Positions 1 to 18,471 of a DNA stretch of 64,000 nucleotides are shown here, in pieces. Under the pieces are notes generated by a model, which worked only from the letters and a program-made list of their open reading frames with translations, was not told the DNA's origin and did no database searches. How positions within the stretch are numbered: position 1 is the stretch's first letter; every line of letters starts with the position of its first letter. Location of the stretch: assembly GCA_013112585.1 (NCBI GenBank), contig JABFGH010000004.1, positions 62,001 to 126,000 on the forward strand, written 5' to 3'. Source of the DNA: Ignavibacteriota bacterium. GTDB lineage: Bacteria > Bacteroidota > Ignavibacteria > Ignavibacteriales > Melioribacteraceae. A program made the position numbers and the translations under genes.

Positions 1-1
1 A

Positions 2-1159
2 GTTACCGATATTTATTTAAACGGCAGCGAAAGTGTAAACATCTCCCTTCAATCCATTATTGAGTATGACTTAAAACGAATTAGTTTTGGTTTGTTAAGC
101 AATAACTTGTCAGTTTACAATTATTTTTTAATCAACAATATTATTTGCAGTATTTTTAATTTTATTGAATTGGCTGACTACAGTGATGAAATCGAAAAGT
201 TTTTTACTGAACAAAAATTTGGGTCAAACGAAAAATTAGAACAGTTCGTTAAAGAATTTGACAGATTTAGAAACTTACGTATGGATGACTTAAACTTAGA
301 TGAATTTCGCCCTGAAATAAATTTTATTCATAATATTATTCACAGCGAACAGACACATAAAAACTTACTTTACTATACGTCAGTTAATTTAACCGAAAGA
401 AAATTTCGAACAACTATAAAATCAATTTATGATTATATAGTTAATAAAAATTACAAAGGTATTGAAGATAAACTGAATTACTTTGATGCCGAAATTGAAA
501 AAATTAAAGCAAAGATTGAAAAATATAACCGGGAAGGAAAAGGCTTAATTGAAAAGATAAAAAATGAAACAAAAGAAAATATAGCCGAATTTGAAAGAAA
601 AATTGAGCATAACCTATCCCTGCTGGACAACAGATTAAATAACCTAAATCTGCAGAATAGCTATAACCCGGTTAACGCATTTAAGAATTCCTTAACCTAC
701 AGTTTTGTAATATCACTTCTAATTTTTTTAGTAGCCGGAATGGCAAGCTATTCCAATGTAACAGGCGGAGACGTGATTGAGATGCATAGTTCAATTTACT
801 CATTTTTAGCACCGGGAGTAAAGTGGGGTTCAATTGCATTTTTACTTGGTTTTTTATTCGCAATATTTTCATCCATCTCGGCAATTATGGAACGATCGAC
901 ACAAAAACAGAGAATTGTTCAGCGAATAGGTTTTGTAAAAAACCAGCGTGAAAGACAAGTAAAAGAGCTGGAGAAGAAAAAAGAACATGATATTAAAATT
1001 GCGGGAGAAAATCTTGCAGAAATCAAAAAAGAATATGAAGCCCAGATAGAAAAGTTTAAAAATGATAAAATTGAAAAAGAACAAGAAATTAGAAAAGAAG
1101 CAGATGAAAAAATTCAAAAAGAGTCGGAACCAATAAAACCCTTCCTTAAAGAATCTTAA
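2..1159 (+). CDS. Unknown two-TM coiled-coil protein, 5' end outside window
   Basis: The frame is open from base 2 with no stop, so the gene starts upstream of the window; a TTG at 92 is in frame but has no special support as a start. Counted from that TTG, residues about 130-185 and 290-350 are charged Lys/Glu-rich coiled coils. Between them lie two hydrophobic segments (about 204-224 and 245-268) separated by a short polar loop. This looks like a membrane hairpin with long helices on both sides. I recognise no enzymatic motif. It lies outside the flagellar operons and is followed by a small hairpin. Function unknown. Confidence 0.75.
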   Translation, partial: VTDIYLNGSESVNISLQSIIEYDLKRISFGLLSNNLSVYNYFLINNIICSIFNFIELADYSDEIEKFFTEQKFGSNEKLEQFVKEFDRFRNLRMDDLNLDEFRPEINFIHNIIHSEQTHKNLLYYTSVNLTERKFRTTIKSIYDYIVNKNYKGIEDKLNYFDAEIEKIKAKIEKYNREGKGLIEKIKNETKENIAEFERKIEHNLSLLDNRLNNLNLQNSYNPVNAFKNSLTYSFVISLLIFLVAGMASYSNVTGGDVIEMHSSIYSFLAPGVKWGSIAFLLGFLFAIFSSISAIMERSTQKQRIVQRIGFVKNQRERQVKELEKKKEHDIKIAGENLAEIKKEYEAQIEKFKNDKIEKEQEIRKEADEKIQKESEPIKPFLKES

Positions 1160-1312: not shown

Positions 1313-4300
1313 ATGGAATACAGCAAGGCGAGTACAACTTTTGTTCAAGAGATAAAACAGCGGCTGAATAATTCAAGCGAAAACAATTTGACGGAAGTTC
1401 AGCAAATCGAAAATTTTATTGCTAAAAAGGAATATGATAAAGCGGGTAATTTGGCAATTCAATTACTTGATCAAAATTCAAATAACCAAAAAGTATTAGA
1501 ATTACTGGCAGAGACTAAATTTCTTCAGGGAGATATTCTTGAAGCAGAAATGCTTTTTGAAAATGTGCTTAAGAATAGCGAAAAAAAATCGGCTGCGTTA
1601 AAGTATTTAATCGAAATTAACATTGAAAAACATTCCCTTTCTGTTGCCTTAAACTATTTTATTGAATTTTTAATGTTAGAACCCTACGATGAACAATCAA
1701 AAATATATTCAGAATTTTTTGCAACAAATTTAAAAGGTGATCTGCAAAAACGTTTTTATAGTTTTATGAATTTCAATGAAATGGTACCCACAACCTTTAC
1801 CATTGAAACTGCATTGGCATGCGATCTTAAGTGTCCCGAATGCGCAATTGGCGGAGGAATGATCAACAGCCGCGCAAAAGGGTTTATGAAATTTGATCAG
1901 TTCAAAGAGATTTTTGATAAAATCAAACCATCATGCGAATATCTATACCTGCACTTGTGGGGGGAGCCAATGCTCAATAAGGAAATATTTAAAATCATAT
2001 CTTATGCATCGCAGTTCACCCGAACAAACATCAGCACAAATGCACAATCATTAGATAATAATAAAATAGAAAAACTAATTACATCGGGAGTCTCTGATCT
2101 GATCGTTTCAATTGATGGTTATTCCCAAGAAGTATATGAAAAATATAGAGTGGGGGGGGATGTTAAACAGGCTCTTAAATCGCTGCACAAACTCGCCTCT
2201 GTAAATACAAAGTATGGTAATAAAGTTCAGATCACACCTCAGTTTATAGTATTTGAGCACAACGAGCATGAAGTTGAAAGCTTTGAAAAATACTGCTCTA
2301 GTATAGGATTAAAACCTTTGTTCAAAGCCCCCTATATACGCAGCAATAATTCGGAATTCTCATTTTCTTCGAACACAAATTACCGAAGAAAACAGTATGA
2401 AGATGAAGTCTCGCTAAAGACTGCTATGGCTGATTGTGTTAATGCAAAAGAGGTTTTTACTATTAATCTTGATGGTTCAGTAATAGTTTGCTGCCATGAT
2501 TATGATAAAGCAACAAATTTTGGAAATATTTTTGAAGAAGACTTGACAACAATTTGGAACAAGTCTGACTATAGAAAATACAGATGGAAAATTATTGACG
2601 GTCAAGCGTCAAGTTTTTGCATAGATAATTGTATGACGTACACCAAAGCATTGGAAGAACCTGAAGTCCAGAAGAAGGAAGTAAAAATTAGTAATAAACC
2701 AGAGCGGCAAAAGGAGGTAAATCTATCCAAGGTAAATCTTTGCAGCGGACCTCGGAAACTAAATGATTATGTAAATATTGATATAACTCCGAACTCCGAT
2801 ATCGTGCTTGATCTCGAAAAATCATTATTGCCCTTTGAAGATAATTCAGTTGAAACCTTGGTCTGCATTTCCGCCATAAATTATTTTACAAGGGCAAGAG
2901 CTCTTGAAATTATTAAAGATGTTTTTAGAACATTGACTGACGGTGGGGTAGCTCGCTTTGGTGTTCAGGATTTAAGGTTATTGACAAAAAAATATTTAGA
3001 TAAAGATGAACAATTCTTTTTTGAAAAACTTGAAGACGGATCAAATCGTTTTCCCAGCGATACATTAGCAGATAAATTTAATGAGTGGTTTTATGGTTTT
3101 CCCTCCTCAGGCAAACACTGCAAATATGTTTACGACTTTGAAAGTTTGGCATTTCTATTTAAGAAAGCAGGTTTTAAAAAAGTAGAACAGAAACAGTATA
3201 GAGAAAGCGAAATTGAAAATATTGAGTTGATAGATAATAGACCGGAACAATTGTTTTTTTTGGAAGCAGTTAAAGAATGCAAAGAAGATTTTGATAAAAG
3301 TAAAATAAAAATTAGTTCGAGCAATGATTGGAGTAATGAAAAGAACTGGCAAGCATTATTAGAAAAATTAGAAGAGAATATTTCTGATAAAAAATCTTTA
3401 GTAAAAGCAGCTCAGTTAATGATCAACACAAATAAGTGGTCTTACTTAATTAAAATGCTCAATAAATATTTATCTGCAAATGCAAATGACGAAGAAATAC
3501 GAAGGTTATTAAACAAAGCTGAGCGTAAGTTAAAAGAGGAAGAACCTACACAACAACAGATTTTGCAGAACCAAAAGGAAAGTTTGAAGTTGAACAAACT
3601 GAACGGATCAGTCCGGTCAGATGAGTTCCATCTTAGAAAAGCAATTGATTGGATATTAACAGCATTTGACGCAGCCGGTGGTAAAGGAATCTCAGCAAAT
3701 TATAATCTTATTGATAAAAAATGGAATATGGCTTATCCGGAAACTACCGGGTACATAATTCCCACTCTAATAGAATTTAGTAAACAAACAAATGATTATA
3801 GCATTATAGATAAAGCAATTCAGATGGCAGATTGGGCAATAGCAATACAATGGAATAACGGCGGCATCGGAGAACCCGTTGGTGTCTTTGGTCGCAAGCC
3901 TATAATTTTTAATACATCTCAAGTGATTCTTGGATTTCTTTCATGCTATGATTTAACAAGTGATATTAAATATTTGAACGCTGCAATAAAGGCGGGAGAC
4001 TGGATAACCGGTAGTCAAGAAAAAGACGGAAGCTGGAAAGAGAACACATATAAAGGTCCCCAGTCATACCATATCAGAACAGCATGGTCCTTATTGGAAT
4101 TATTTAAAGTGAGCAATGATCAAAAATATTCTAATGCTGCGCATAATAATTTGAAATATACATTAAGTCTTGCTGAAGAGAACGGGTTTATAAATAACAC
4201 TAGTTTAGAATATCCCGAAAAATCTTGGACGCATTTTATTGGTTATACATTAGTTGGACTTCTTGAAATTTATAGACTTATCGATGATAAAGAGTCTAAA

Positions 4301-4717
4301 CTCAAATTAATGAGTGTGCTAATTAATGCTGCAGAAAATCTCATCGAATATTATAATCAAAATCGTGAAAGACAAAGCTATCCCTGTTTTCCCGGAACAT
4401 TTGATAACAACTGGAGGAGCACTGATAACTGGAGCTGTATTTCGGGGAATGCACAATTGGAATTCTTTTTAAGAAGAATGCACATTCAAACTAAGTATCC
4501 TCAATATTTAGCATGCGCAGACAAAGTGCTCGATGATTTAAAGCATCTTCAAATTTTGGATATTGCCGAAAATGATAAGAATCTATATGGTTCATTTACA
4601 GGTTCATATCCGGTTGAAGGACAATACAGGAAATATAACATTCCAAATTGGGGAGTAAAATTCTTTGCGGATTCACTAATTCAAAAAATTTATAAAGTAA
4701 ATAAGTATTTAGGCTGA
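1313..4717 (+). CDS. TPR / radical SAM-SPASM / methyltransferase-like / six-hairpin fusion enzyme
   Basis: First gene of the glycosylation island, 1134 aa. A TPR-like N-terminus (about 25-130) leads to a radical SAM core with the cluster motif C170xxxC174xxC177 and the segment HLWGEPMLN. A SPASM-like Cys region starts near C375 (DCVNAKE, then CCHDYD and CIDNC). Residues about 470-650 resemble a class I methyltransferase (LCSGPRKLNDYVNIDI, then FEDNSVETLV). Residues about 770-1134 form an alpha-helical repeat with W and GS motifs (TTGYIIPTL, GSQEKDGSWKE), as in six-hairpin glycosidase or epimerase folds. AGGA lies 7 bases before the ATG. SAM-dependent chemistry on a sugar or peptide is inferred; the substrate is unknown. 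The next gene begins 6 bases after the stop. Confidence 0.75.
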   Translation: MEYSKASTTFVQEIKQRLNNSSENNLTEVQQIENFIAKKEYDKAGNLAIQLLDQNSNNQKVLELLAETKFLQGDILEAEMLFENVLKNSEKKSAALKYLIEINIEKHSLSVALNYFIEFLMLEPYDEQSKIYSEFFATNLKGDLQKRFYSFMNFNEMVPTTFTIETALACDLKCPECAIGGGMINSRAKGFMKFDQFKEIFDKIKPSCEYLYLHLWGEPMLNKEIFKIISYASQFTRTNISTNAQSLDNNKIEKLITSGVSDLIVSIDGYSQEVYEKYRVGGDVKQALKSLHKLASVNTKYGNKVQITPQFIVFEHNEHEVESFEKYCSSIGLKPLFKAPYIRSNNSEFSFSSNTNYRRKQYEDEVSLKTAMADCVNAKEVFTINLDGSVIVCCHDYDKATNFGNIFEEDLTTIWNKSDYRKYRWKIIDGQASSFCIDNCMTYTKALEEPEVQKKEVKISNKPERQKEVNLSKVNLCSGPRKLNDYVNIDITPNSDIVLDLEKSLLPFEDNSVETLVCISAINYFTRARALEIIKDVFRTLTDGGVARFGVQDLRLLTKKYLDKDEQFFFEKLEDGSNRFPSDTLADKFNEWFYGFPSSGKHCKYVYDFESLAFLFKKAGFKKVEQKQYRESEIENIELIDNRPEQLFFLEAVKECKEDFDKSKIKISSSNDWSNEKNWQALLEKLEENISDKKSLVKAAQLMINTNKWSYLIKMLNKYLSANANDEEIRRLLNKAERKLKEEEPTQQQILQNQKESLKLNKLNGSVRSDEFHLRKAIDWILTAFDAAGGKGISANYNLIDKKWNMAYPETTGYIIPTLIEFSKQTNDYSIIDKAIQMADWAIAIQWNNGGIGEPVGVFGRKPIIFNTSQVILGFLSCYDLTSDIKYLNAAIKAGDWITGSQEKDGSWKENTYKGPQSYHIRTAWSLLELFKVSNDQKYSNAAHNNLKYTLSLAEENGFINNTSLEYPEKSWTHFIGYTLVGLLEIYRLIDDKESKLKLMSVLINAAENLIEYYNQNRERQSYPCFPGTFDNNWRSTDNWSCISGNAQLEFFLRRMHIQTKYPQYLACADKVLDDLKHLQILDIAENDKNLYGSFTGSYPVEGQYRKYNIPNWGVKFFADSLIQKIYKVNKYLG

Positions 4718-4723
4718 TTGTAA

Positions 4724-7700
4724 ATGGCATCATCAAAACTTAAAAGACGAGTTAAAAAAAATATTTCAATTACTGACTATCAATCAGCTTTGAATACAGC
4801 AAGGCAATATTTTGAAAGCGCAGCATATGTTGATGCTTTTGATATATATGAGCAGACTTTAAGGACGTTTCCTGATTCTGCTGTGGAACTGCTCTCCGAA
4901 CTATACGATAGATATAAAATGCTTCCTAATAGAAATCGATATAATCTTTACCAATCAAGAATTTATGATTTTGATATAAAGGAAGGTGAAAAAGTTCTTG
5001 ATATCGGAAGCGGGCATATGCCGTTTCCCTTTGCTACACATTTGGCTGATATTTCACTTGAAGATCACAACTATGGCAGAGCCGGGGCACCATTTAAGTT
5101 TCAAGATGGGAAACCATGCTATGAGTTTAATATAGAAGAAATTCCTTTTGAGGATAAGGAATTTGATTTTGTTTACTGCTCGCATGTGCTTGAGCATACC
5201 CAAGTTCCGGAAAGAGCATGCGAAGAATTAATGAGAGTTGCAAAACGCGGCTATATTGAAACGCCAACACGGGCAAAAGATTTATGGCTTAACAGTGCCA
5301 AAATTTCAAATCATATTTGGTCGGTTGAATACTTAAACGAAACACTAATTTTCGATGAGTATGAAGAATCTGATTTACTAGGTGTTGAGACCGATATACT
5401 AATGAACATGCATGTCGCTCCGCAAAATGAACGTGAAAGAGCTTACTCTGCTCTTATCTATCTGAAACCTGATATGTTCAATACAATGGTTTATTGGGAG
5501 AATAATTTTAAGTATGAGGTAAGGAGGAAATCTCAAATCCAGTTGTCAGTTCCGGTTAGTGAACCAACTCAAATAAACAATGAGAAAAAAGAAGAAGTAA
5601 ACTTTGTTCAAGTTCATACATTTTATCCTCAATATTTGGAAAACTTTTTAAGAACGCATCCGCAGCTTTCTAATCTTACATTTGACCAAGCAAGAAAACT
5701 TTTATTGCAAGATGGATTTAGCGCATCACATCTTTTAGGTAATGGGCTCGCTGAGATTGGATATCGCACAGAAACAATAGTTGCTAACTGCGGCACTCTT
5801 CAATCTAAATGGTTGAGTGAAGCTAAGTTAAATGTAAGAGATCAAAAAAGTATCGTTCAAGATATTGTAATTCAACAGTTGGAAGAACTAAAGCCGGAAG
5901 TATTGTATTTAACTGACCCGATAAACTTCGACAGTAGATTTTTAAGAAAACTATCCTTTACTCCAAAATTAGTAATCGGCTGGCGGGCAGCTACAATTCC
6001 CGAAGGAACTGACTGGAGCAGTTTTGATATAATTTTAACCAGCTTAAACGGATTAAAAAACTATGCTTTAGAATTAGGTGCAAAGTCTTCTCAAATATTT
6101 TATCCCGGTTACCCTAATTGGATTTCAGCACACACAAAAAATATTCAGCCTGAATTTGATTTATCATTTGCCGGTCAATGGACTTTAGATCAGCACACAC
6201 AAAGAAATGCATATTTAAAGAGCATTGCAGATGGCTCATCATCTGGAAAATTAAATCTGGCTTTTTACTTAAGCGGACAAATAAATACGATTGATCCAAG
6301 TGTGCAGCAATTCAATAAGGGGGCAAGGTTTGGAATAGATATGCACAAAGCTGTTAGAAGCGGAAAGATCGCATTTGATGCTCGCGGCGACATTAATTAC
6401 TCCATGGCAGATAAAAAAATTGATTTGACTGACAACGAAACTGCAAACATGCGAATTTTTGAAGCGACAGGCGAAGGAGTGTTTCTTTTAACTAAATATC
6501 ACAAAAACTTGAACAGCTTATTTAAAATAGGGAAAGAGATAGAAACCTATTCGGATGAAAAAGAATTACTTGATAAAATAAATTATTACCTAGCTCATGA
6601 AAATGAACGAACAGAAATAGCAATTAACGGTCAGCAAAAATGTTTACGTGAACATTCTTTGGATAATCGAATTAAAGAATTTGATCAGATAGTTAGAACT
6701 AATCTTGAAAAAAAGAGAAAGAATATGGATGAATCACCATTGATCATTGAGGAAAAAAACTCAATTGAGGATATAAATGAAATGATAAAAATAGCTGCGG
6801 ATAAATTGGAAGAAAATAAACTTGAAGAAGCATTCCAATTACTCATAAAAGTAAAAGGCTTAAAACAACCGGTTGAAAATACAGATTTATTACGCGCTGC
6901 ATACTTTATGCAAGTCAATCAGATTGAGGCAGCCCGTGAAGCAGTTTATGAGGAACTCTCGTATTTTCCAAATAATCAGATTGCAAAAAATCTATTAAAC
7001 CAGTTAGAAAAATCAGAACAAATCAATATTCATGATAGTGAGTTCAAATTTGTATTTGAAAAGGTTCGACCATATACAATGCTTAGTCTTGAAAGGCTAT
7101 ATTCACTTTGGCTGCTGGCAAAAAAGGTATGCGAAAAAGACCTACCGGGTAATTTTGTTGAATGCGGTGTTGCCCGCGGAGGCTCATCAGCTTTACTTGC
7201 ATATGTAATTAAAAAATATTCAAACTCTCCCCGAAAAATATATACATTCGATTCTTTTGAGGGTATGCCTGAACCTACTGCAAAAGATACTCATGCAGGA
7301 CAAGGAGCTAATGATACAGGATGGGGAACAGGTACATGCTCAGCACCCGAAGAAAGTTTAATAAGAATTTGTAATGAATTAGATGTGGTTGAATTCGTTG
7401 TGCCTGTAAAAGGATATTTTGAAAATACCTTGCCCGATTATAAAAATAAGGTTGGTTCAGTTGCTTTACTGCACATGGATGGAGATTGGTATGAATCAAC
7501 AAATGCAATTCTTAATAACATTTATGATAATGTAATTTCAAACGGAATTATCCAGGTTGATGATTTTGGATACTGGGAAGGATGCCGAAAATCCATTGAA
7601 GAATTTCAAGAAAAAAGAGCATTAAAATTTGATATAAATATAATTGATAATACAGGTGTTTGGTTTATAAAACCTGCTGATCAAAAAACAGATAGTTCCC

Positions 7701-8464
7701 AATTAGAATTTAAAGATGAAGCGAAATTATTAAATCTTGGCTGTGGAAATCGTTTTCATGAAGATTGGACAAATATAGATTTCGATTCCAATAATGAAAA
7801 TGTTAAAGCATATAATTTAAGAAATGGAATACCATTCAATGAGAATACATTTGATGCTGTATATCACTCACATTTATTAGAACACTTTCCCAAATCTGAA
7901 GCTCCTAAATTTTTAGAAGAATGTTATCGGGTTTTAAAACGCGGTGGAATAATTAGAATTGCCGTACCAAATTTGGAAGAGATTGCAAATCAATATTTGC
8001 TGAATCTTAATAAGGCGGTTGAAGGCGACAGTGAAGCACAAGACCGATATGACTGGATAATGCTTGAATTACTGGACCAGGCAGTTAGAAATTATAGCGG
8101 CGGTGAAATGCTTGAATACTGGAAGCAGAATCCTATGCCCGCTGAAGATTTTGTGGTTGAAAGATTAGGCTCCGAAGTAAAGGGCTTTCTAAATACCGTT
8201 AGAAATGGGAATAATGGTTTTAAAGGAAATATAAATATCTCACCAAAAGATATTGGCGATTTTAGACTGTCCGGTGAAATACATCAATGGATGTATGATC
8301 GGTTCTCCCTCGGAAGATTATTAACTCAAACAGGATTTAAACAGGTAAGTGCCTGTAAAGCAGATAATTCAATGATACCAAAATTTAATAGTTATTTACT
8401 TGATATTGAAAACGATGGTTCGGTACGTAAACCGGATTCACTTTTTATGGAAGCGAAAAAATGA
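4724..8464 (+). CDS. Fusion of three methyltransferases and a CgeB-like glycosyltransferase
   Basis: 1246 aa. A short TPR-like N-terminus precedes methyltransferase 1 (about 85-205; VLDIGSGH near 91, FDFVYCSHVLEHT). Residues about 293-665 look like a GT-B glycosyltransferase of the CgeB/family 1 type (FSASHLLGNGLAEIGY, NMRIFEATGEGVFLLT). After a TPR-like spacer comes a TylF/macrocin-type O-methyltransferase (about 775-980; NFVECGVARGGSS, FDSFEGMPEP, MDGDWYES near 918). The C-terminus is a third methyltransferase (from about 1001; LLNLGCGNRFHEDW, HSHLLEHF, RVLKRGGIIRIAVP). Probable role: transfer and O-methylation of sugars on a surface or flagellin glycan. The stop overlaps the next start as ATGA. 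Order and number of activities are clear; substrates are not. Confidence 0.78.
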   Translation: MASSKLKRRVKKNISITDYQSALNTARQYFESAAYVDAFDIYEQTLRTFPDSAVELLSELYDRYKMLPNRNRYNLYQSRIYDFDIKEGEKVLDIGSGHMPFPFATHLADISLEDHNYGRAGAPFKFQDGKPCYEFNIEEIPFEDKEFDFVYCSHVLEHTQVPERACEELMRVAKRGYIETPTRAKDLWLNSAKISNHIWSVEYLNETLIFDEYEESDLLGVETDILMNMHVAPQNERERAYSALIYLKPDMFNTMVYWENNFKYEVRRKSQIQLSVPVSEPTQINNEKKEEVNFVQVHTFYPQYLENFLRTHPQLSNLTFDQARKLLLQDGFSASHLLGNGLAEIGYRTETIVANCGTLQSKWLSEAKLNVRDQKSIVQDIVIQQLEELKPEVLYLTDPINFDSRFLRKLSFTPKLVIGWRAATIPEGTDWSSFDIILTSLNGLKNYALELGAKSSQIFYPGYPNWISAHTKNIQPEFDLSFAGQWTLDQHTQRNAYLKSIADGSSSGKLNLAFYLSGQINTIDPSVQQFNKGARFGIDMHKAVRSGKIAFDARGDINYSMADKKIDLTDNETANMRIFEATGEGVFLLTKYHKNLNSLFKIGKEIETYSDEKELLDKINYYLAHENERTEIAINGQQKCLREHSLDNRIKEFDQIVRTNLEKKRKNMDESPLIIEEKNSIEDINEMIKIAADKLEENKLEEAFQLLIKVKGLKQPVENTDLLRAAYFMQVNQIEAAREAVYEELSYFPNNQIAKNLLNQLEKSEQINIHDSEFKFVFEKVRPYTMLSLERLYSLWLLAKKVCEKDLPGNFVECGVARGGSSALLAYVIKKYSNSPRKIYTFDSFEGMPEPTAKDTHAGQGANDTGWGTGTCSAPEESLIRICNELDVVEFVVPVKGYFENTLPDYKNKVGSVALLHMDGDWYESTNAILNNIYDNVISNGIIQVDDFGYWEGCRKSIEEFQEKRALKFDINIIDNTGVWFIKPADQKTDSSQLEFKDEAKLLNLGCGNRFHEDWTNIDFDSNNENVKAYNLRNGIPFNENTFDAVYHSHLLEHFPKSEAPKFLEECYRVLKRGGIIRIAVPNLEEIANQYLLNLNKAVEGDSEAQDRYDWIMLELLDQAVRNYSGGEMLEYWKQNPMPAEDFVVERLGSEVKGFLNTVRNGNNGFKGNINISPKDIGDFRLSGEIHQWMYDRFSLGRLLTQTGFKQVSACKADNSMIPKFNSYLLDIENDGSVRKPDSLFMEAKK

Positions 8465-11400
8465 AGATAGTTCACATTTGTACACAAGATTTTGGCGGTG
8501 CCGGTAAAGCGGCATACAGACTTAATTTAGGACTTAATGCAATTGGCATTGATTCCAAAATGGTTGTAATGAGTAAGAATAGCGGCGACTATAGTGTTAA
8601 AGTTCTGCCCGAAACAGGTCAAGAGAATATATTTAATTGCGTAGCTGTAGATGTGCATAGATCTCAAATGTTTTTTCAGCAGTGGCAAAATTGGACTGCA
8701 ATGCTTAACGATTATCCAAATAAACCGCAAGGTTTAGAAATGTTCTCTGATGCAACAGCGCTAAGCAAATTGGAAAATTGTTTGGAGATAAAAGAGGCAG
8801 ATATAATAAATCTTCATTGGGTTGCAGGAATTGTTGATTATGAAACAATGAAGAGGGCTTTCGGCAGCAAGCCTATTATTTGGACACTTCACGATATGAA
8901 TCCATTTACCGGCGGATGTCATTATGCAGGGGATTGTAAAAATTATTTATCAAAGTGCAGTAATTGTGAACAACTTGGCAGCGATTATGAAAATGATGCT
9001 TCAAGCATAATCTGGAATACGAAAAATAGTGCATATCAAAATTTAGATATCAACATTGTTACTCCAAGTAAGTGGCTTGGAGAATGTGCTAAGGAAAGCT
9101 CACTCTTCTCTTCAAGGGATGTTCAAATAATTCCATACGGTTTTCCATTAGAAAAATTTAAGCCTTATGAAACTAAAGAATTAAAAACTAAATATGGAAT
9201 AAGTGAAAACACACAACTAGTACTGTTCGGTGCCGAAAGTGTAACTAACATGCGTAAAGGCTTTCCGTATTTACTTGAATCACTTAAACAAATTCAAGTT
9301 GAGCCTGGATGGGAAATTAAACTTGGTATTTTTGGTAACCTGCCGGATGAAATAAAAATAGAATCAAAATTTGAAATAATCAGATTTGGTTCATTTAGTG
9401 ATGAAGTAGAAATAGCTAAAATTTACAGCCTTGCTGACGTATTTGTAATTCCCTCATTGGAAGATAACCTTCCAAATACTGTTGTGGAGTCAATGGCGTG
9501 CGGAACCCCGGTAGTTGGTTTTAACATCGGCGGCATTCCGGATATGATCTCACATCTTAAGACAGGTTATCTGGCAGAGAAAAAAAATATTAAGGATTTG
9601 GCATTAGGAATAACCACTGTTTTATTCAAATTGAATGCGGATGAACTTAGTAAAAATTGTTTAGAAAACGCGCGCCAAAATTATCCTTTAAAACTGCAGG
9701 CGAGCAGATATGCTGAACTTTATACTAAAATTCTTTCTTCTAAATATATAGTTAAAAATGAACTGGCAGACATTCACAAAGCTGAAGAATTAATTGAAGC
9801 AGGCAAATATGATGATGCCAAGAAAATTTTATTGTCTCTTTTAGAGGATAATAACGAATCCGTTGTAGCATTAAATGATTTAGCTGTTATCAACATTTTG
9901 GAAAATAATTTTAGCAAAGCAGAAACCTATATCAATTCAGTTTTGCTGATTGATCCTCAAAATTCAATCGCTCATGAAAACTTAAATTTTATCATTCAGC
10001 AGAAATCAGCAGGGGATGAAAATCAAGAATTCCCAAAAATAACAATTGTTACCCCATCCTATAACCAGGCAGAATTTTTAGAAGAAACTATCAAATCGGT
10101 ACTTAGCCAGGGCTACCCGAATTTAGAATATATAATTATGGACGGCGGAAGCACTGACGGCTCAGTTGAAATTATTAAAAAGTACGAAGACCAACTTGCT
10201 TATTGGCAAAGTAAACCGGACGGCGGACAATATGCAGCCATTGAAGAGGGGCTGAATAGAGGAACCGGTGAAATAATGGGCTGGATAAATTCAGATGACA
10301 GGCTTTATCCGCAAAGTCTTCAAACAGTCGCCTCAATATTTATGAATGATAATAGTATTGAATGGATTACCGGACGACCTTCCATGTTTAACAATATGGG
10401 CGAACAGTTTTATAGAATCGATTTATCTGTTTGGTCGCAAGAAAGGTATTTGAAAAAAAATTATCAATTTATTCAGCAAGAATGTACGTTTTGGAAAAAA
10501 GTTCTTTGGGAAAAAGCTGGATCAAAATTAAGAAGTGAGTTAAAACTTGCAGGAGATTTAGAACTTTGGACAAGATTCTTCCGACATGCATATTTGCATT
10601 CAGTCGATATCTTATTAGGCGGGTTCAGAAAACAACCCAACCAAAAAACCGCATCATTCATGAATGAATATCTTAAAGAAGCGGAGAATATACTCGATGC
10701 GGAAATTGATTTTATAAATCAGACCGGTAAAACACCCAAAGGAAAAGTTCCGCTAATTAAACTGAATGAAAATTCAATTAGAAAATTTGGAAGCAAAGAA
10801 GAACTTGTAAGCTTAGTTGATTCAGTAGACAAATGTATTGAAGAAAATAAAATAAAATATGCAATAAGTAATTTGAAAAAAGCTCTGGTAATTGAACCGA
10901 ATGCATACCACTTAATTGAAGTATTATCGGATTTAGAATACAAGAACGGAAATACTACCGATTCGAAAATACTATTATGGAATTTAATTGAGCGTTTTAA
11001 TGCCGAAGAAGAGGTGTTTGATAAACTTCTAAAATATGAAATGGAAGAATTCCGTATTGATAATGCTTTTAGATTATTAAAAGTATATAAAAGCTCTTTC
11101 TCCTTAAATAAATACCAAACTGAATACGATAAATTAGATTCACAATTAAAAACATGCAGAGCATTTACAAAATTATTTCAGCTTGATAAAGTCGGAAGAG
11201 CGAGGGAAGCATTATCGAATTTGGAAGCATTTCAAAATAAGCTCTACTATAACTTCGGGGGAAGTGAAATATCATCAAATGGAAAGATCGATATTAGTTT
11301 TGAAGAACTGCTTGCCATAGCGCCAAGAGTAGTGGATCTAATTGATAACTTAAAGATGCAAGAGTTAAAAGTATTTCTTGAAGAAATTGTGCAAAACAAA

Positions 11401-13002
11401 ATCAACAATCCAACGACTGAAAATTTTGTTCAACATAATACTTTAAGTGCTGAAATACCTAACCGGGAAATACTTGTATCTGCAATAGTTTCAACATACA
11501 ACTCCGAAAAATTTATAAAAGGCTGCTTGGATGATCTAACATCTCAAACAATTTACAAAAAAGGATTGCTTGAAATCGTTGTTGTTAATTCAGGTTCAGA
11601 AGAAAATGAAGATGATATTATTGAGCAATACAAAACTCGATCTTCAAATATCACTTACATTAAAACCAATGAGCGAGAAACAATTTACGAGGCGTGGAAT
11701 AGAGGAATAAAAGCAGCAAAGGGAAAATTTATAACAAATGCCAATACCGATGACAGGCACCGCCCGGATGCTTATGAAAAAATGATAAATCAGTTTCAGA
11801 GTGATAAAAATATTGATCTGGTTTATGCTGATGTTCTTCAAACTACAATTCCAAATGACGATTACTATTCCAGCAGTAAAAAAAGTCAATTAAATTGGAT
11901 TGACTTTGATGCAGACCTGCTGCTCTTCGGCTGCTATATAGGTCCGCAGCCGATGTGGAAAAAGGAACTGCATGACAAGTTCGGTTATTTTGATGAATCA
12001 TTAAAAGTAGTAGGGGATTATGAATTCTGGCTGCGAATAAGCAGAGAAGCTAATTTCCATCATATTCAAGAAACATTGGGCTTATATCTTTATGCTGAAG
12101 ATAGCGCGGAACATAGAGACAATTCGTTAACCGAGCAAGAAAACGATAGGGTGAAAACTAAGTACATCTGCAAGTATATTAAAAATGATGAGATGTATAG
12201 TGTAGTCTTGAATAAACTAAATGAGATCAACAAAATCTTTAAACATGAACTCTACTTTACCAGCAATTCCATATTTCTTAAAAAAAGAAAAAATGGAATT
12301 CATCTTGAAAGGAAAATTTTTGAATTCTCACAAAATTTTGGTGCGGGAACTAACGGCAATACAGATTCAATAATTCAAACGCTAATTAATTTGGTGAATG
12401 ATGAAAATGCAATTGTTGATAAAGATTTTTATTTGGGAGTTCTTTATGGTTTACGCGGAAGCTATTATTTAACACTTGGCGATCTCGAATCTGCCCGAAT
12501 TCATTTTGAATCTTCATTGAATTACGATTCGGAATCAAGTGATGCCTGTGCGGGATTAGGAGAAGTTTTTTATCAATCGGGTATTTACAACACTGCCGAA
12601 GAAATGTTTGAATGGGCTATGAAGCTCGATACTAAAAATCAATTTGCTGAAAAACGATTACAAAAAATAAATAGAGAAAATAATATGCAGAATACAAACA
12701 TGAGTACCGATAAATCGGGACATTTTCAAAATATAGAACGAGCGGAAAGTCTTATCAATACTGAAAAATACAATGATGCACGCTTAATTCTAAATGAAAT
12801 TTTGAACGAGGATAACAAACATGTTGATGCTCTAAATGATCTTTCGGTCATTGAAATTCTTGAAGGCAATTTTTATAGAGCGGCGGAGATGATTTCAAAA
12901 ATTATTGATATCGATCCTCAAAATGAGGTTGCAAAAGATAATCTGTTAAACCTCGAAAAAATTGTTGACGAAAATTTAATAACTATACAAAATAAATTAT
13001 AG
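8461..13002 (+). CDS. Triple glycosyltransferase fusion (GT4 + GT2 + GT2) with TPR linkers
   Basis: 1513 aa, starting at the ATGA overlap with the previous gene. Residues 1-425 are a GT4-type GT-B domain (GGAGKAAYRL at the start; PSLEDNLPNTVVESMACG with the conserved acidic pair near 331-347). TPR repeats at about 435-515 lead to a GT2 domain (from 526; IVTPSYNQ, DGGSTDGS, metal-binding NSDD at 610-613). A helical linker precedes a second GT2 domain (about 1004-1210; IVSTYNSE, VVNSGSE, NTDDR with D1097/D1098). The C-terminus (about 1300-1513) is TPR and contains ACAGLGEVFY, the same repeat as the next gene. A processive or multi-step glycan synthase is a reasonable inference. Confidence 0.82.
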   Translation: MKIVHICTQDFGGAGKAAYRLNLGLNAIGIDSKMVVMSKNSGDYSVKVLPETGQENIFNCVAVDVHRSQMFFQQWQNWTAMLNDYPNKPQGLEMFSDATALSKLENCLEIKEADIINLHWVAGIVDYETMKRAFGSKPIIWTLHDMNPFTGGCHYAGDCKNYLSKCSNCEQLGSDYENDASSIIWNTKNSAYQNLDINIVTPSKWLGECAKESSLFSSRDVQIIPYGFPLEKFKPYETKELKTKYGISENTQLVLFGAESVTNMRKGFPYLLESLKQIQVEPGWEIKLGIFGNLPDEIKIESKFEIIRFGSFSDEVEIAKIYSLADVFVIPSLEDNLPNTVVESMACGTPVVGFNIGGIPDMISHLKTGYLAEKKNIKDLALGITTVLFKLNADELSKNCLENARQNYPLKLQASRYAELYTKILSSKYIVKNELADIHKAEELIEAGKYDDAKKILLSLLEDNNESVVALNDLAVINILENNFSKAETYINSVLLIDPQNSIAHENLNFIIQQKSAGDENQEFPKITIVTPSYNQAEFLEETIKSVLSQGYPNLEYIIMDGGSTDGSVEIIKKYEDQLAYWQSKPDGGQYAAIEEGLNRGTGEIMGWINSDDRLYPQSLQTVASIFMNDNSIEWITGRPSMFNNMGEQFYRIDLSVWSQERYLKKNYQFIQQECTFWKKVLWEKAGSKLRSELKLAGDLELWTRFFRHAYLHSVDILLGGFRKQPNQKTASFMNEYLKEAENILDAEIDFINQTGKTPKGKVPLIKLNENSIRKFGSKEELVSLVDSVDKCIEENKIKYAISNLKKALVIEPNAYHLIEVLSDLEYKNGNTTDSKILLWNLIERFNAEEEVFDKLLKYEMEEFRIDNAFRLLKVYKSSFSLNKYQTEYDKLDSQLKTCRAFTKLFQLDKVGRAREALSNLEAFQNKLYYNFGGSEISSNGKIDISFEELLAIAPRVVDLIDNLKMQELKVFLEEIVQNKINNPTTENFVQHNTLSAEIPNREILVSAIVSTYNSEKFIKGCLDDLTSQTIYKKGLLEIVVVNSGSEENEDDIIEQYKTRSSNITYIKTNERETIYEAWNRGIKAAKGKFITNANTDDRHRPDAYEKMINQFQSDKNIDLVYADVLQTTIPNDDYYSSSKKSQLNWIDFDADLLLFGCYIGPQPMWKKELHDKFGYFDESLKVVGDYEFWLRISREANFHHIQETLGLYLYAEDSAEHRDNSLTEQENDRVKTKYICKYIKNDEMYSVVLNKLNEINKIFKHELYFTSNSIFLKKRKNGIHLERKIFEFSQNFGAGTNGNTDSIIQTLINLVNDENAIVDKDFYLGVLYGLRGSYYLTLGDLESARIHFESSLNYDSESSDACAGLGEVFYQSGIYNTAEEMFEWAMKLDTKNQFAEKRLQKINRENNMQNTNMSTDKSGHFQNIERAESLINTEKYNDARLILNEILNEDNKHVDALNDLSVIEILEGNFYRAAEMISKIIDIDPQNEVAKDNLLNLEKIVDENLITIQNKL

Positions 13003-13011
13003 GAGACCGAA

Positions 13012-13887
13012 ATGCCTACATTAAACAAACTTGTTGATAAAGCTTATCAATTGTTTCTAGATAAGGAATATGACCCAGCTCTTGAGATATTAGAGCAGGT
13101 AAATAATGACATCACAAACCCGCAAATAGATTTGCAGCTTACAAAAGAACAAGAAAACGAATTAGTTGCAAGTGTTGAAAACTTTAGAGGATTTAACCTT
13201 TTAGGTAAAGGTGATATAGAGAAGGCGAAAATTGCTTTTGAAAAATCGCTGGAACTTAATCCTCATTCATCACAAGCATGTGCGGGACTTGGAGAAGTTT
13301 TTTACTTATGCAATATGGACTACGAAGCAAAAGTAGTATTTGAATGGGCGCTTGATAACAATCCGCTTAACCAGCTTGCAAAAGCCGGCTTGGCAAAAAT
13401 AAATAAAAACTTGCAGCTTCCTGAAAATCACAACACACTTAACATAAACACGATTGTTAAAAAGAAAAAAAATTTTTACTCGCTGTTGGCAGAAGCATAT
13501 CAGCTTTTTAGCGAAGATGAATATCATGAGGCTTTATCAAAATTAGATGATGCCGATGCACTTTTCAGTAAATCACTTATCAGTAAAGATTCAGCCGCAA
13601 AGATTGCGAGTCTGGAAAACTTTAAAGGATTTAATTACCTGGCATTAAAGGATTACGAAAATGCAAAACTTAGTTTTGAGAATGCGTTAAACTTAAATCC
13701 CAACTCATCTCAAGCATGCGCAGGTTTAGGCGAAATATTATTCTTAGATGAAAAAGATGATCAGGCAAAAACAATGTTTGAGTGGGGCTTAAAACATAAT
13801 CCCGCAAACCAATTTGCCTTATCCGGCTTAAAAAAAGTAAATAGGAATTTAGAATCGGAAAACGTTCATGCTTCATTTATGAACTAA
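13012..13887 (+). CDS. TPR repeat protein made of two duplicated halves
   Basis: 291 aa, without catalytic motifs. Two homologous halves (about 1-140 and 155-285) each run AYQLF, then ENF[RK]GFN, then SSQACAGLGE, then [ML]FEW-type helices. The same module occurs at the C-terminus of the preceding 1513-aa enzyme, so this looks like a duplicated, freed scaffold domain. A ribosome site (AGGAG) lies just upstream in the 9-base gap. TPR modules in glycosylation systems often bind acceptor proteins; a role in presenting flagellin to the transferases is inference. Confidence 0.8.
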   Translation: MPTLNKLVDKAYQLFLDKEYDPALEILEQVNNDITNPQIDLQLTKEQENELVASVENFRGFNLLGKGDIEKAKIAFEKSLELNPHSSQACAGLGEVFYLCNMDYEAKVVFEWALDNNPLNQLAKAGLAKINKNLQLPENHNTLNINTIVKKKKNFYSLLAEAYQLFSEDEYHEALSKLDDADALFSKSLISKDSAAKIASLENFKGFNYLALKDYENAKLSFENALNLNPNSSQACAGLGEILFLDEKDDQAKTMFEWGLKHNPANQFALSGLKKVNRNLESENVHASFMN

Positions 13888-13900
13888 TGGGATTTGAACT

Positions 13901-15400
13901 ATGCCTAAACTTACTTTAAGCATGATCGTAAAAAATGAAGAGCAATTTTTGCCCGGTTGTTTGGAATCGGTGCAAGGTATTGCTGATGAAATTGTAGTTG
14001 TTGATACCGGTTCTACCGATTCAACTAAAAGAATTGCAGAAGAGCACGGAGCAAAAGTTTATGATTTCGTGTGGGTAGATGATTTTTCGGCAGCACGTAA
14101 TTTTGCCCTGCAAAAATCAACAGGCAATTGGATACTGTATTTAGATGCAGATGAAAGACTTACAGAATCATCAGTTGAAGAATTGAAAGAAATAATAGAA
14201 AAGGATAAAAACCTTGCTGTGAATTGCCTGATTGACTGTATCGATAACCACAACAATAAAGCAAGTGTTATAAAATATACTAGGTTGTTCCGCAATAATC
14301 CCAAATTGAAATTCAAGGGTAAAGTTCACGAGCAGATTGTTACATCATTAAAAGAACTGAACTATAAAACGGTAGAATCAAATATTAAAATACTGCATTT
14401 AGGTTATGATATACCAAAGGCGGAGTTAGAAAAAAAAGCTGAACGGAATTTAGCTCTGTTGTTAAAAGAGTTTGCAGAAAAGCCGACAATTTACGCTGCG
14501 TTCCAAATTGCTCAATCTTATGGCGTGCTGGATGATTCAACAAATGTGATAAAATATTTTGACTATATTTTATCGACTAAGGAAAGTCCAAAACTATATA
14601 AAGCCCATGCATATAGGTATAAAGCTGCAAAGGCTTTTGAAAGAGGCGACTTTAAAATTGCTTTAAATCTGGCAAGTAAAGGTAACCGGCTTGATCCCGA
14701 TCAGCCGCTGCTGAATATGCTTCTGGCAAAAATTTATTTGCTTACAGGGCAAATGGAAGAATCGCTCAAGTTTATTTTTAGAGCATATCAAACCAATAAA
14801 AGTGAGACGGTAAAAGAATTTGAATTAGTAATTGATCCTAGATCGGTTCTTTACCTCGCACTTCAAATTTCATCTGCGGCTAAATCTGCCGAACACTTTA
14901 ATTATTATTTCAGTGAGTTAAAAAAACTTGATTCAGGAGAACTTAGCAGCAACAAATTATTAAATTTTGTTCGATTACTTTTTAACGGCGAACCAATTGA
15001 AGAAAATTCTATTAAAGATTATGCCTCACAAATAACTGAAGCAAATTGCGAACTACTATTTTCTTTAATTGAAAAATATCCTCTCCTTGATATAAAACTT
15101 AGACTTTTAAATTTATCATCAGATACTCTTTCGGAACATACGGCATACTTAAATTCCTACGGTTATGCTTTACTTCAAAATAATGCTACTGCAGAAGCTG
15201 CAGAAGTATTTGAAAAATCGATAAAGAAAAAGATTACCGAACCGGCAATTATTTTCTATTTGATATCAGCGTATGTTCAATTAGAACAGTATGAAAAGAT
15301 AACCGCTTTAGTTGAACTGGCGGAAAAAAGTTTTGCAGCACTACCCGAAGTAATGGAAAGATTAAATATGCTTAAAGAAAAATTGTCTGTACTAAATTAA
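13901..15400 (+). CDS. GT2 family glycosyltransferase with C-terminal TPR repeats
   Basis: 499 aa. The GT2 domain starts at residue 3 (LTLSMIVKNEE) and continues with VVDTGSTDST, ARNFAL and the metal-binding LDADE near residue 85. The conserved KVHEQI segment follows. This layout is typical of the SunS-like/TPR-linked GT2 family acting on proteins or peptides. The remaining 300 residues are helical TPR-like repeats. It is a tandem paralogue of the next gene. Together with the TPR protein before it and flagellin after it, a protein O- or S-glycosyltransferase is likely; acceptor and sugar are not visible. Confidence 0.85.
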   Translation: MPKLTLSMIVKNEEQFLPGCLESVQGIADEIVVVDTGSTDSTKRIAEEHGAKVYDFVWVDDFSAARNFALQKSTGNWILYLDADERLTESSVEELKEIIEKDKNLAVNCLIDCIDNHNNKASVIKYTRLFRNNPKLKFKGKVHEQIVTSLKELNYKTVESNIKILHLGYDIPKAELEKKAERNLALLLKEFAEKPTIYAAFQIAQSYGVLDDSTNVIKYFDYILSTKESPKLYKAHAYRYKAAKAFERGDFKIALNLASKGNRLDPDQPLLNMLLAKIYLLTGQMEESLKFIFRAYQTNKSETVKEFELVIDPRSVLYLALQISSAAKSAEHFNYYFSELKKLDSGELSSNKLLNFVRLLFNGEPIEENSIKDYASQITEANCELLFSLIEKYPLLDIKLRLLNLSSDTLSEHTAYLNSYGYALLQNNATAEAAEVFEKSIKKKITEPAIIFYLISAYVQLEQYEKITALVELAEKSFAALPEVMERLNMLKEKLSVLN

Positions 15401-15414
15401 CAATCAGGAAAAAA

Positions 15415-16932
15415 ATGCCTCAGCTAACATTAAGTATGATTGTAAAAAATGAAGAAGCAAATTTAGCTGAATGCTTAAATTCGGTTACAGGGATTGCTGA
15501 TGAGATTGTTATTGTCGATACTGGTTCCAACGACAAAACAAAATCGATCGCAAAATCTTTCGGGGCAAAGGTTTATGATTTTAAATGGGTGAACGATTTT
15601 TCAAAGGCACGCAATTTTGCTTTAAGCAAATCAACGGGCAATTGGATTTTATATTTAGATGCAGATGAAACTCTTGATATAAACTGCATAGATGAAATAA
15701 GTAGTATCATAAATAGAGATGAAAAATTAAGCGTTAGTTGTGTTGTAGAAAGCATTAACGAGTTTAATAATTCCCCGGTTACAATGCGCTATCCGCGGTT
15801 ATTTAAAAATAATCCATCTATAAAATTCAGCGGTAAAGTACATGAGCAGATTGAAAGTTCGTTGGTTGAAAATAGTTACACCTTTGTTGACTCGACAATA
15901 AAAATTTTTCATAGCGGATACAACCTGCCCGAAGATGAATTAAAAAGGAAAGCCGAAAGAAATCTATCAATTCTATTAGATGATTATAAAATTAAACCTA
16001 CCGGGTACTTAGCTTTTCAAATTGCTAACTCTTATACAATTCTTAAAAATAGAGTGGTGGCTGCTGAATATTTCAGTATAGCTTTAAAGTGTTCTTCACT
16101 TGAAAAAGAATACAGAGTTATATCGCTGGCAAATTTAGCAGGCTTTGAACTTGAAAAATTAAACTTTGATAATGCAGAAAAGCATATAGAACAAGGGTTG
16201 AAGCTGAAGCCGCTTGATCCGAACTTCTATTTTACCGCAGCGCAAATTTATCTGAAAAAAGAAAAATTTGGTTCAGCTCTTTCATTTATTATGCATGCAT
16301 CTGAGCTAAATGAAAATGAAATATCAGATTCACACAAACGTATATTTATAAAAATTGATTCCTATAAAATTATTTATCTGGGAATTGAAATTAGTCTGGC
16401 AGCAAATAACGGCAGTTACTTCAATCATTTTTGTAAGAAGCTTGATGCGAAGAACAACGAAAATTTAATAATAAACGATTTTGAAGAATCAGTGATTTTG
16501 AAATCACTAATAAATTTGCGGGCATTAAAGCCGAAAATGCTCGACTCACTATTAGCGTACATTAACAATATTTCACTTTCTACATACTTAAATATACTTG
16601 AGAGCATTGCAGACCCGAATATAACCACTAAAATATTAGCGCCTATAAAAACAAAATTCAATGATAATGAGTTATTCCATTTAACTTTAGGTAATGCACA
16701 CCTGGCTATGGACGATAATAAAAATGGTGAGGCGGAACTTCGGCAGGCATTAAAAGTCAATCCCCAAAACCCTGCGGCTTATTTTTTCTTGATCTCATAT
16801 TACATAAATACATCTCAAATTATCAGAGTAAATGAATTGTTGGAAAAGGCTGAAAGCATATTCCGAAATAATGAAGTGATTCAGAATAAATTAAAAATAC
16901 TTGAAGAAAAAACAAAATGTTTAACAGCTTAA
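15415..16932 (+). CDS. GT2 family glycosyltransferase with TPR repeats (tandem paralogue)
   Basis: 505 aa. The first 90 residues closely follow the preceding protein (LTLSMIVKNEE, DTGSNDKT, ARNFAL, GNWILYLDADE), while the TPR C-termini have diverged. A CAGGA ribosome site precedes the ATG. Last gene of the island: the 285 bases after it carry the flagellin promoter and leader. The pair arose by tandem duplication and may add two sugars or act on two acceptors, possibly the two flagellins; that is inference. Confidence 0.85.
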   Translation: MPQLTLSMIVKNEEANLAECLNSVTGIADEIVIVDTGSNDKTKSIAKSFGAKVYDFKWVNDFSKARNFALSKSTGNWILYLDADETLDINCIDEISSIINRDEKLSVSCVVESINEFNNSPVTMRYPRLFKNNPSIKFSGKVHEQIESSLVENSYTFVDSTIKIFHSGYNLPEDELKRKAERNLSILLDDYKIKPTGYLAFQIANSYTILKNRVVAAEYFSIALKCSSLEKEYRVISLANLAGFELEKLNFDNAEKHIEQGLKLKPLDPNFYFTAAQIYLKKEKFGSALSFIMHASELNENEISDSHKRIFIKIDSYKIIYLGIEISLAANNGSYFNHFCKKLDAKNNENLIINDFEESVILKSLINLRALKPKMLDSLLAYINNISLSTYLNILESIADPNITTKILAPIKTKFNDNELFHLTLGNAHLAMDDNKNGEAELRQALKVNPQNPAAYFFLISYYINTSQIIRVNELLEKAESIFRNNEVIQNKLKILEEKTKCLTA

Positions 16933-18135: not shown

Positions 18136-18471
18136 ATGTACACAAATACAAATACAAGCAGATCAAATTCTACAATGAATCCATACTTACTAAATAATAT
18201 TATGGATGCTACACCAGCGCAGTTATTAATTAAAGTATATGATTTTGCTATTGTGAACTGTAAGAAAAATGAATTATCAAAAACCAATGCGGCAATACAA
18301 ACATTAATAGATGCATTGAGATATGATGGAGGCGAAGAGGTCAAGGAAGTTTCAATTGGTCTTTTACGCCTTTATCAATATTGTCAGGAACAAACTAGAA
18401 GAGGCAACTTTGATAGTGTTCTTAAGATATTAACAGAATTACGCGAAAGCTGGTCAGTTATACTAAAGTGA
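18136..18471 (+). CDS. fliS: Flagellin export chaperone FliS
   Basis: 111 aa. The family start is clear: NPYLLNNIMDATPAQLLIKVYDFAI, with the conserved P/QLL/YD pattern. Later helices include ALRYDGG and LLRLYQYC. FliS binds the disordered C-terminus of flagellin in the cytosol and keeps it unpolymerised until export. It sits between the two flagellin genes, after the terminator of the first. No promoter of its own is obvious, so read-through is likely. Confidence 0.9.
   Translation: MYTNTNTSRSNSTMNPYLLNNIMDATPAQLLIKVYDFAIVNCKKNELSKTNAAIQTLIDALRYDGGEEVKEVSIGLLRLYQYCQEQTRRGNFDSVLKILTELRESWSVILK

Follow-up and report, generated by a model that had tools for sequence, protein, structure and literature searches.

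A probable flagellin glycosylation island of giant glycosyltransferase and methyltransferase fusion enzymes in an Ignavibacteriota bacterium

Introduction

GmaR of Listeria monocytogenes is both the O-linked N-acetylglucosamine (GlcNAc) transferase of flagellin and the anti-repressor of MogR; its N-terminal domain transfers GlcNAc, and its tetratricopeptide repeat (TPR) part was proposed by the authors to recognize flagellin (PMC9638930). In type B Clostridioides difficile, GT2-family enzymes (GT1, GT2, and GT3) encoded beside fliC act stepwise, and a methyltransferase domain (PF08241) is fused to the enzyme named GT2, for which both the addition of rhamnose and its methylation have been proposed (PMC5207246). 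Variable islands occupy the flagellin locus of Enterobacteriaceae, where methyltransferase domains are borne by most of the GT41 enzymes and by one GT2 type, GT2-30 (PMC4875605), and FlmG of Caulobacter is a cytoplasmic flagellin O-glycosyltransferase that has a separate flagellin-binding domain and uses pseudaminic acid (PMC7591256). Insofar as these sources describe them, flagellin glycosylation systems use smaller, separate enzymes. Here, we analyze a 64,000-nucleotide stretch (the window, G000:C4:62001-126000) of the 4.94-Mb genome of an Ignavibacteriota bacterium (GCA_013112585.1, contig JABFGH010000004.1), in which six tightly packed open reading frames (ORFs), several of them encoding very large fusion enzymes, precede the gene for flagellin.

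We consider it probable (roughly 85%) that the six genes constitute a cytoplasmic flagellin O-glycosylation island with stepwise addition of sugars. The best reading is that a constant GmaR-like enzyme is accompanied by a variable mosaic of fused glycosyltransferase (GT) and methyltransferase modules. An earlier note, made from the letters of the window, had suggested modification of flagellin or another surface protein; the link to flagellin is now strong because ORF5 has GmaR as its nearest solved relative, the gene order is conserved across the taxonomic order, and enzyme and flagellin co-occur.

Several features set the island apart from the described systems. Relative to GmaR, it adds four genes, encoding three multidomain enzymes and one TPR protein. 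For C. difficile, the accessible part of the report describes a single GT-methyltransferase fusion and no radical SAM-SPASM protein, six-hairpin domain, multi-GT giant, or TPR adaptor (PMC5207246). The Enterobacteriaceae islands hold 1 to 3 GTs each in the portion of the work available (PMC4875605), whereas the runs analyzed here have up to 10 GT domains as counted with our own profile hidden Markov models (HMMs) and ORFs of up to 4,710 amino acids (aa). The earlier note was aware of no published system in which the domains are arranged in this way, and our literature search, which left most subscription journals outside its scope, likewise found nothing on multidomain or giant flagellin GTs or on flagellin glycosylation in Ignavibacteria. 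To that extent, the giant multi-GT form appears to be undescribed; islands at the flagellin locus, and smaller fusions of a GT with a methyltransferase, are already on record (PMC5207246 and PMC4875605, in the parts accessible).

Two GmaR-like enzymes at the flagellin end of the island

The last two genes of the island, ORF5 (499 aa; window positions 13901..15400, plus strand) and ORF6 (505 aa; 15415..16932, plus strand), encode proteins with 38% identity to one another, each with a GmaR/SunS-like GT2 domain followed by TPRs. They belong to a family of ∼500-aa proteins, designated GT2S-TPR, for which an alignment and profile of 52 members were built. The GT-typical residues DTGS.D, DADE, and HEQ are invariant in the 52 homologues, and a regular-expression search located DADE in both ORF5 and ORF6. 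In a comparison with the Protein Data Bank (PDB), the best match of ORF5 was the GT domain of GmaR (22ao, E 4.6e-36), followed by the SunS-type entries 7msk (1.9e-23), 7msp (4.4e-21), and 7msn (6.8e-21). The 52-row family profile gave the same ranking, with 3.5e-57 for the GmaR GT domain and 3.9e-31 to 2.4e-39 for the SunS type. ORF5 and GmaR are alike in having an N-terminal GT2 domain (found in ORF6 as well) followed by TPRs, in their flagellin target (here by linkage), and in sequence, GmaR being the closest solved relative. The TPRs after the GT domain score above the Pfam cut-off in both ORF5 and ORF6.

SunS is a peptide S-glycosyltransferase whose acceptor is a Cys of a bacteriocin peptide. 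It shares its GT2 domain with ORF5 (PDB 7msn and 7msp), which matched the SunS model of NCBIfam, TIGR04195, at E 4.5e-29; the scores obtained with this model, 101.5 bits for ORF5 and 95.4 bits, are both under the 350-bit cut-off.

Since GmaR is bifunctional (PMC9638930), ORF5 and ORF6 might be thought to act mainly as regulators, in the manner of its anti-repressor half; we find this scarcely credible. GmaR, as the available text presents it, comprises 637 aa and includes an anti-repressor domain (PMC9638930), whereas the two paralogues are shorter and show no match to that part. The family profile matches PDB entry 7x9r (E 1.7e-20), a 503-aa chain listed as "Glycosyl transferase family 2"; we interpret it as the GmaR construct in print that lacks most of the GT domain. 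The alignment to this chain ends near residue 296-299. The invariance of DADE and the other GT residues also argues against a purely regulatory role. A search of the genome for MogR gave no match, although it matched no control genome either and shows little.

Linkage of the signature enzyme to flagellin across the order

Flagellin 1 (288 aa; 17218..18084, plus strand; Pfam) begins 285 bp after ORF6, and flagellin 2, also of 288 aa, lies at 18586..19452 on the same strand; both are presumed acceptors. GT genes thus stand beside the flagellin locus, as in a flagellin glycosylation island, and this linkage is kept in relatives. Conservation was assessed in 146 genomes of the order (Ignavibacteria), with named relatives that included Stygiobacter and Melioribacter, and GT2S-TPR was scored as present at E ≤ 1e-30. 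Flagellin was detected in 95 of the 146 genomes and GT2S-TPR in 86, all of them flagellin bearing, so that the enzyme is present in 86/95 flagellin-positive versus 0/51 flagellin-negative genomes. The same division is seen within at least six mixed genera (g2, g6, g12, g29, g39, and g41), in which every flagellin-negative genome is without GT2S-TPR. The earlier note had named occurrence of the cluster in relatives without flagella as evidence against its proposal; among the 51 flagellin-negative genomes of the order, the signature gene was sought and not found. Melioribacter roseus has been described as motile by flagella (PMC3534657).

Synteny was evaluated in 60 regions upstream of flagellin, selected by us, to which G036, G038, G009, and the window were added. 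Fifty-nine regions extend ≥1.5 kb upstream; GT2S-TPR is present in 49 of them, and in 43 it is the gene that immediately precedes flagellin, in the same orientation. Forty-nine regions extend ≥8 kb; the enzyme is present in 43 of these, and 42 include a same-strand ORF of 1,000 aa or more, whatever its content. For the named records (loci L103-L148), a table read by eye shows that 38 of 46 are followed by flagellin in the same orientation, flagellin being scored by our own HMM at >100 bits within the available stretch. The misses are L117, L119, L130, L133, L134, L136, L146, and L147, among which L119, L130, and L147 have <300 b of downstream sequence and L134 has flagellin upstream on the opposite strand. 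Genome G038 contains two flagellin loci (G038:C7:12701-15864 and G038:C36:66661-69861), and a separate GT2S-TPR copy immediately precedes each of them, as though enzyme and flagellins had been copied together.

In some genomes, other long ORFs take the place of GT2S-TPR beside flagellin. One of 1,518 to 1,720 aa adjoins it in G006, G019, G012, G024, G028, G026, and G080; that of G006 (L044:12591-17753, 1,720 aa), the only one scanned with Pfam, contains TPRs and a GT9-like domain. In G043, G085, and G108, an ORF of 786 to 790 aa lies directly upstream of flagellin (L083:10926-13286, L086:15508, and L102:3961), and it is TPR rich in G043. The ORFs at these four loci, in genomes that encode GT2S-TPR elsewhere, are possibly a second type of flagellin GT.

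Domain content of the island

The island was correctly located by the earlier note at 1313-16932, where it had counted five adjacent genes. Six plus-strand ORFs are present, of 1134, 1246, 1513, 291, 499, and 505 aa, with gaps of 6, -4, 9, 13, and 14 bp from ORF1 to ORF6; the one omitted was probably ORF4, a TPR-only protein. ORF1 (1134 aa; 1313..4717, plus strand) consists of weak TPRs, radical SAM (residues 167-303), SPASM (375-440), a methyltransferase (about 481-655), and a six-hairpin domain (about 776-1134). ORF2 (1246 aa; 4724..8464, plus strand) begins with a methyltransferase (about 75-267), continues with a GT of the Glyco_trans_1_2 type (about 290-665) and a TylF O-methyltransferase (783-982), and ends with another methyltransferase (about 991-1171); it is 51% identical to its G036 homologue across residues 2-1245. 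ORF3 (1513 aa; 8461..13002, plus strand) has a GT4-type domain (about 1-425), TPRs, two GT2 domains (526-719 and 1005-1207), and further TPRs, and ORF4 (291 aa; 13012..13887, plus strand) is a TPR-only module.

Pfam bears out the domain counts of the earlier note: six GTs, four methyltransferases, one radical SAM-SPASM, and one six-hairpin domain. The GTs are distributed as one in ORF2 (Glyco_trans_1_2), three in ORF3 (one Glycos_transf_1 and two GT2), and one GT2 each in ORF5 and ORF6; three methyltransferases are in ORF2 (Methyltransf_11/23, TylF, and Methyltransf_11/25) and one is in ORF1, where it falls under the Pfam cut-off (17.1 versus 21.2 bits) and its G036 homologue lies above it (28.9 bits). 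Regular expressions located CxxxCxxC in ORF1, NSDD and NTDD in the two GT2 domains of ORF3, and GxG-type motifs in the two outer methyltransferases of ORF2, with no match in TylF. The Radical_SAM and SPASM matches of ORF1 are clear by Pfam, and no NCBIfam cut-off was reached among the matches listed. The statement that all parts are tied by TPR modules was too broad: TPRs score above the Pfam cut-off in ORF3 to ORF6, are weak in ORF1, and are absent from ORF2 at E 0.01.

The six-hairpin domain gave a borderline Pfam match to C5-epim_C (25.4 bits, cut-off 23.3), from which one may guess at an epimerase-like action, and nothing useful in a sequence search of the PDB (best E, 0.71). It is 49% identical to the copy in G036, and looks like a domain of glycan loci. 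By eye, the stand-alone six-hairpin gene of G028 has a GT-like ORF as its neighbor; in G033, a weaker relative (L186:1-1566) is fused to a methyltransferase-like part and overlaps a GT2-like ORF.

Sets of GT4, GT2, TylF, and other methyltransferase genes are common in polysaccharide loci, and the cluster might accordingly make a cell-surface polysaccharide or lipopolysaccharide and lie beside flagellin by chance. In keeping with this, some genes further upstream in relatives read like sugar metabolism (N-terminal sequences, by eye), and a copy of ORF2 domains in G013 (C95) is located off the flagellin contig beside sugar-nucleotide-like genes. Nevertheless, we judge the explanation highly improbable in view of the order-wide adjacency to flagellin, the absence of the signature gene from flagellin-negative genomes, and the resemblance of ORF5 to GmaR. 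There is also no membrane enzyme among the six proteins, for which Pfam (E 0.01) detected no flippase, polymerase, or polyprenyl-phosphate transferase family and a simple hydropathy scan no transmembrane (TM)-like segment. Cytoplasmic addition of sugars to flagellin before export fits the absence of both TM-like segments and lipid-carrier enzyme families.

Maf, another flagellin GT, presumably belongs to the PF01973 model. No PF01973-type domain was detected in G000, and 5 of the 146 genomes had one above the cut-off, in a search whose control set included no known Maf carrier.

Multi-GT ORFs and a mosaic of modules in relatives

GT domains in the runs of relatives were counted with our own domain HMMs, which are coarser than Pfam, so that these counts are rough; the 1,720-aa ORF of G006, for instance, has no GT by the HMMs. 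Among 49 contiguous runs before flagellin, 40 include an ORF of at least 1,000 aa (in some cases a TPR ORF that lacks a GT by the HMMs) and 14 one of at least 2,000 aa, while 32 include an ORF with at least two GT domains and 22 one with at least three; the number of GT domains per run ranges from 0 to 10 (median, 4). The longest ORF, of 4,710 aa, is found in G055 on a fragment other than the one counted. By Pfam it comprises seven GT2 stretches, a GT1/GT4-type and a GT9-type domain, three methyltransferase stretches, and TPRs, and the 2,840-aa ORF of G009 is similar in kind. Across seven genomes, the GT2 matches listed include 20 in ORFs of at least 900 aa, and 19 of these belong to the flagellin island, the exception being G036:C5:44648 (1,125 aa); no other GT2 match listed is in an ORF longer than 673 aa. 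Among the matches listed, long GT2 ORFs are thus particular to this locus. Chance fusion or misassembly was considered as the origin of the long ORFs and was rejected, as they recur across genomes and one of 2,116 aa is present in Stygiobacter electus (L145), whose record is not labeled as a metagenome-assembled genome (MAG).

When 175 GT2-type domains from 56 genomes were clustered (single linkage, 35% identity), the largest cluster was GT2S, with 54 domains from 50 genomes. The remaining clusters are patchier, with 39 domains from 30 genomes, 19 from 17 (including the second GT2 of ORF3), 17 from 17, 8 from 8, and 6 from 6 (the first GT2 of ORF3), plus 12 singletons. One enzyme is therefore near constant and the remainder is a mosaic.

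ORF4-like modules were counted at ≥100 bits, weaker matches being left out as possibly generic TPR similarity. They stand alone in 16 ORFs of at most 311 aa (window copy included; two of the 16 are truncated where the stretch ends), and the gene that follows encodes GT2S-TPR in 10 of the 16, an ORF of 1,030 to 1,322 aa in 5, and lies beyond the stretch in 1. In eight genomes (G047, G097, G055, G070, G095, G037, G001, and G056), the module is fused to a GT-containing ORF, ending 1 to 5 residues from the C terminus in five of them, and in G057, G024, and G054 it lies inside an ORF without a GT by our HMMs. Modules that are fused in some genomes and adjacent in others are usually partners. The two forms of ORF4 thus indicate that the parts belong together and provide the best evidence for a multienzyme complex. 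The "assembly line" envisaged by the earlier note is borne out to this extent, by tandem fusions and by the fission and fusion of ORF4; a hand-over between domains and an order of action are unsupported.

Observations that weigh against the flagellin reading

A number of results count against an island devoted to flagellin. The Fisher p value of the co-occurrence (2e-30) ignores the relatedness of the genomes. Nine flagellin-positive genomes gave no GT2S-TPR match at the threshold; six of them are at most 90% complete, and G050, G106, and G111 are 95 to 98% complete. In 6 of the 49 long upstream regions (G006, G028, G026, G080, G043, and G085), the enzyme is not near flagellin and is encoded elsewhere in the genome. 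Sugar-nucleotide synthesis genes are absent from the six island genes (Pfam, searched in these six). Two parts of the proteins have limited bearing: the TPR half is not specific evidence, because the family profile matches nonflagellar, consensus or engineered TPR chains (9qhb, 2.4e-50; 8bu0, 9.5e-29) at least as strongly as the GmaR TPRs, and the six-hairpin part is not general to the islands, because strong homologues besides that of the window are confined to 2 of 146 genomes, G036 (fused, same architecture) and G028 (stand-alone), with any match at E 0.001 in 17. ORF1 as a general part of these islands was rejected on the latter ground.

Among loci L149-L182 (n = 34, L149 not evaluable), flagellin was found in 0 of 33 stretches. 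Most of L150-L182 are longer (many of 720 to 790 aa), lower-scoring relatives from Kapabacteria, from MAGs of Desulfobulbaceae and Desulfobacteraceae, and from others; the GT2S catalytic fold is therefore not specific to flagellin, longer relatives outside the order being present with no flagellin in the stretch. Enzymes of the usual size (497 to 505 aa) in L117, L133, L136, L146, and L166 also have no flagellin in the stretch, which extends 4.9 to 10 kb downstream; that of L166, of 505 aa and the usual kind, has 10 kb.

These relatives would suit an alternative in which the enzymes act on another exported protein, such as a hook protein, adhesin, or S-layer protein, or on several proteins including flagellin, and six GT domains are many for a single filament protein. 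We nonetheless hold this to be very unlikely, since the co-occurrence with flagellin is near one to one and both flagellin loci of G038 carry their own GT2S-TPR.

A border gene that tracks flagellin

An unannotated gene, the 3' part of which occupies positions 1..1159 of the window (plus strand; whole gene G000:C4:61309-63159, L203:109-1959), encodes a 616-aa protein with an uncertain start codon. It matched no Pfam family at E 0.01 and no NCBIfam model over its cut-off, and TPR-like matches in its homologues are at most weak. The N terminus is helical and the C terminus coiled-coil-like, and a simple hydropathy scan found hydrophobic segments at residues 457-475 and 509-527 with charged, coiled-coil-like flanks. 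Both segments recur in most of 19 aligned homologues (one above the threshold in L099 and L079, three in L068). Homologues are present in 89/95 flagellin-positive versus 3/51 flagellin-negative genomes (p 4e-28). Where the border gene and GT2S-TPR could both be placed (n = 81), they share a contig in 44 genomes, always within 30 kb; in 41 of the 44, the border gene lies upstream in the same orientation. In the other 37 genomes, some of them good assemblies (e.g., G009), the two are on separate contigs, and the border gene is therefore not constantly at the island. Judging from these segments, the protein is probably membrane anchored; it could serve as a membrane tether for the island enzymes, or it could play a different part in the flagellum.

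A proposed route of flagellin modification

The acceptor, the order of steps, the sugars, and the role of every domain are proposed as follows. The TPR parts of ORF5 and ORF6 would bind flagellin, and their GT2 domains would attach the first sugar to Ser/Thr; the presence of two such enzymes may reflect a pair of sites, or of flagellins, to be served. ORF3 and ORF2, with four further GT domains, would extend the glycan on the protein, sugar by sugar, without a lipid carrier, and the methyltransferases of ORF1 and ORF2 would methylate it. The radical SAM-SPASM and six-hairpin (perhaps epimerase-like) domains of ORF1 may chemically modify one sugar, with ORF4 as a TPR adaptor joining giant enzyme and flagellin, and the modified flagellin would then be exported. 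Such a route resembles those of FlmG (PMC7591256, in part) and of type B C. difficile (PMC5207246) in its cytoplasmic, stepwise addition of sugars before export, as judged for FlmG by description rather than sequence.

More tentatively, and rather against the odds, the giants could be protein-glycan megasynthases: tandem GT, methyltransferase, and sugar-altering modules (up to 4,710 aa) with TPR docking at or near the C terminus would build a strain-specific glycan on cytoplasmic flagellin in an order fixed by the module set, beside the export gate and with the border protein and its two TM segments as tether. Module swapping would then rewrite the filament glycan.

A whole, mostly uncultured order couples flagellin to a GmaR-like enzyme and to variable, long multi-GT fusions. 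Because their parts occur both fused and split, the islands lend themselves to a natural test for ordered action of fused GTs. They are also a source of modules for cytoplasmic, lipid-free protein O-glycosylation, which could be reconstructed in a laboratory strain. From the co-occurrence pattern, a clear prediction follows for S. electus and other cultured members.

Genes downstream of the island

Between the two flagellin genes lies that of a FliS-like flagellin chaperone (111 aa; 18136..18471, plus strand), and the filament cap FliD (19778..21559, plus strand) follows, with flagellar and chemotaxis genes next. A 355-aa ORF without a Pfam match lies amid chemotaxis genes at 28617-29684. After FliD, positions 22321-24424 encode a histidine kinase and an NtrC-type regulator (sigma-54 activator); the sigma-54 promoter consensus had 0 matches in the window at ≤1 mismatch, with 1.75 expected, from which we draw no claim. 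Many of the downstream same-strand ORFs scanned are flagellar or chemotaxis genes, including those for methyl-accepting chemotaxis proteins, CheW, CheR, a CheA-type protein, CheB, FliF, FliK, an FlgE-type protein, and a member of the FlhA family.

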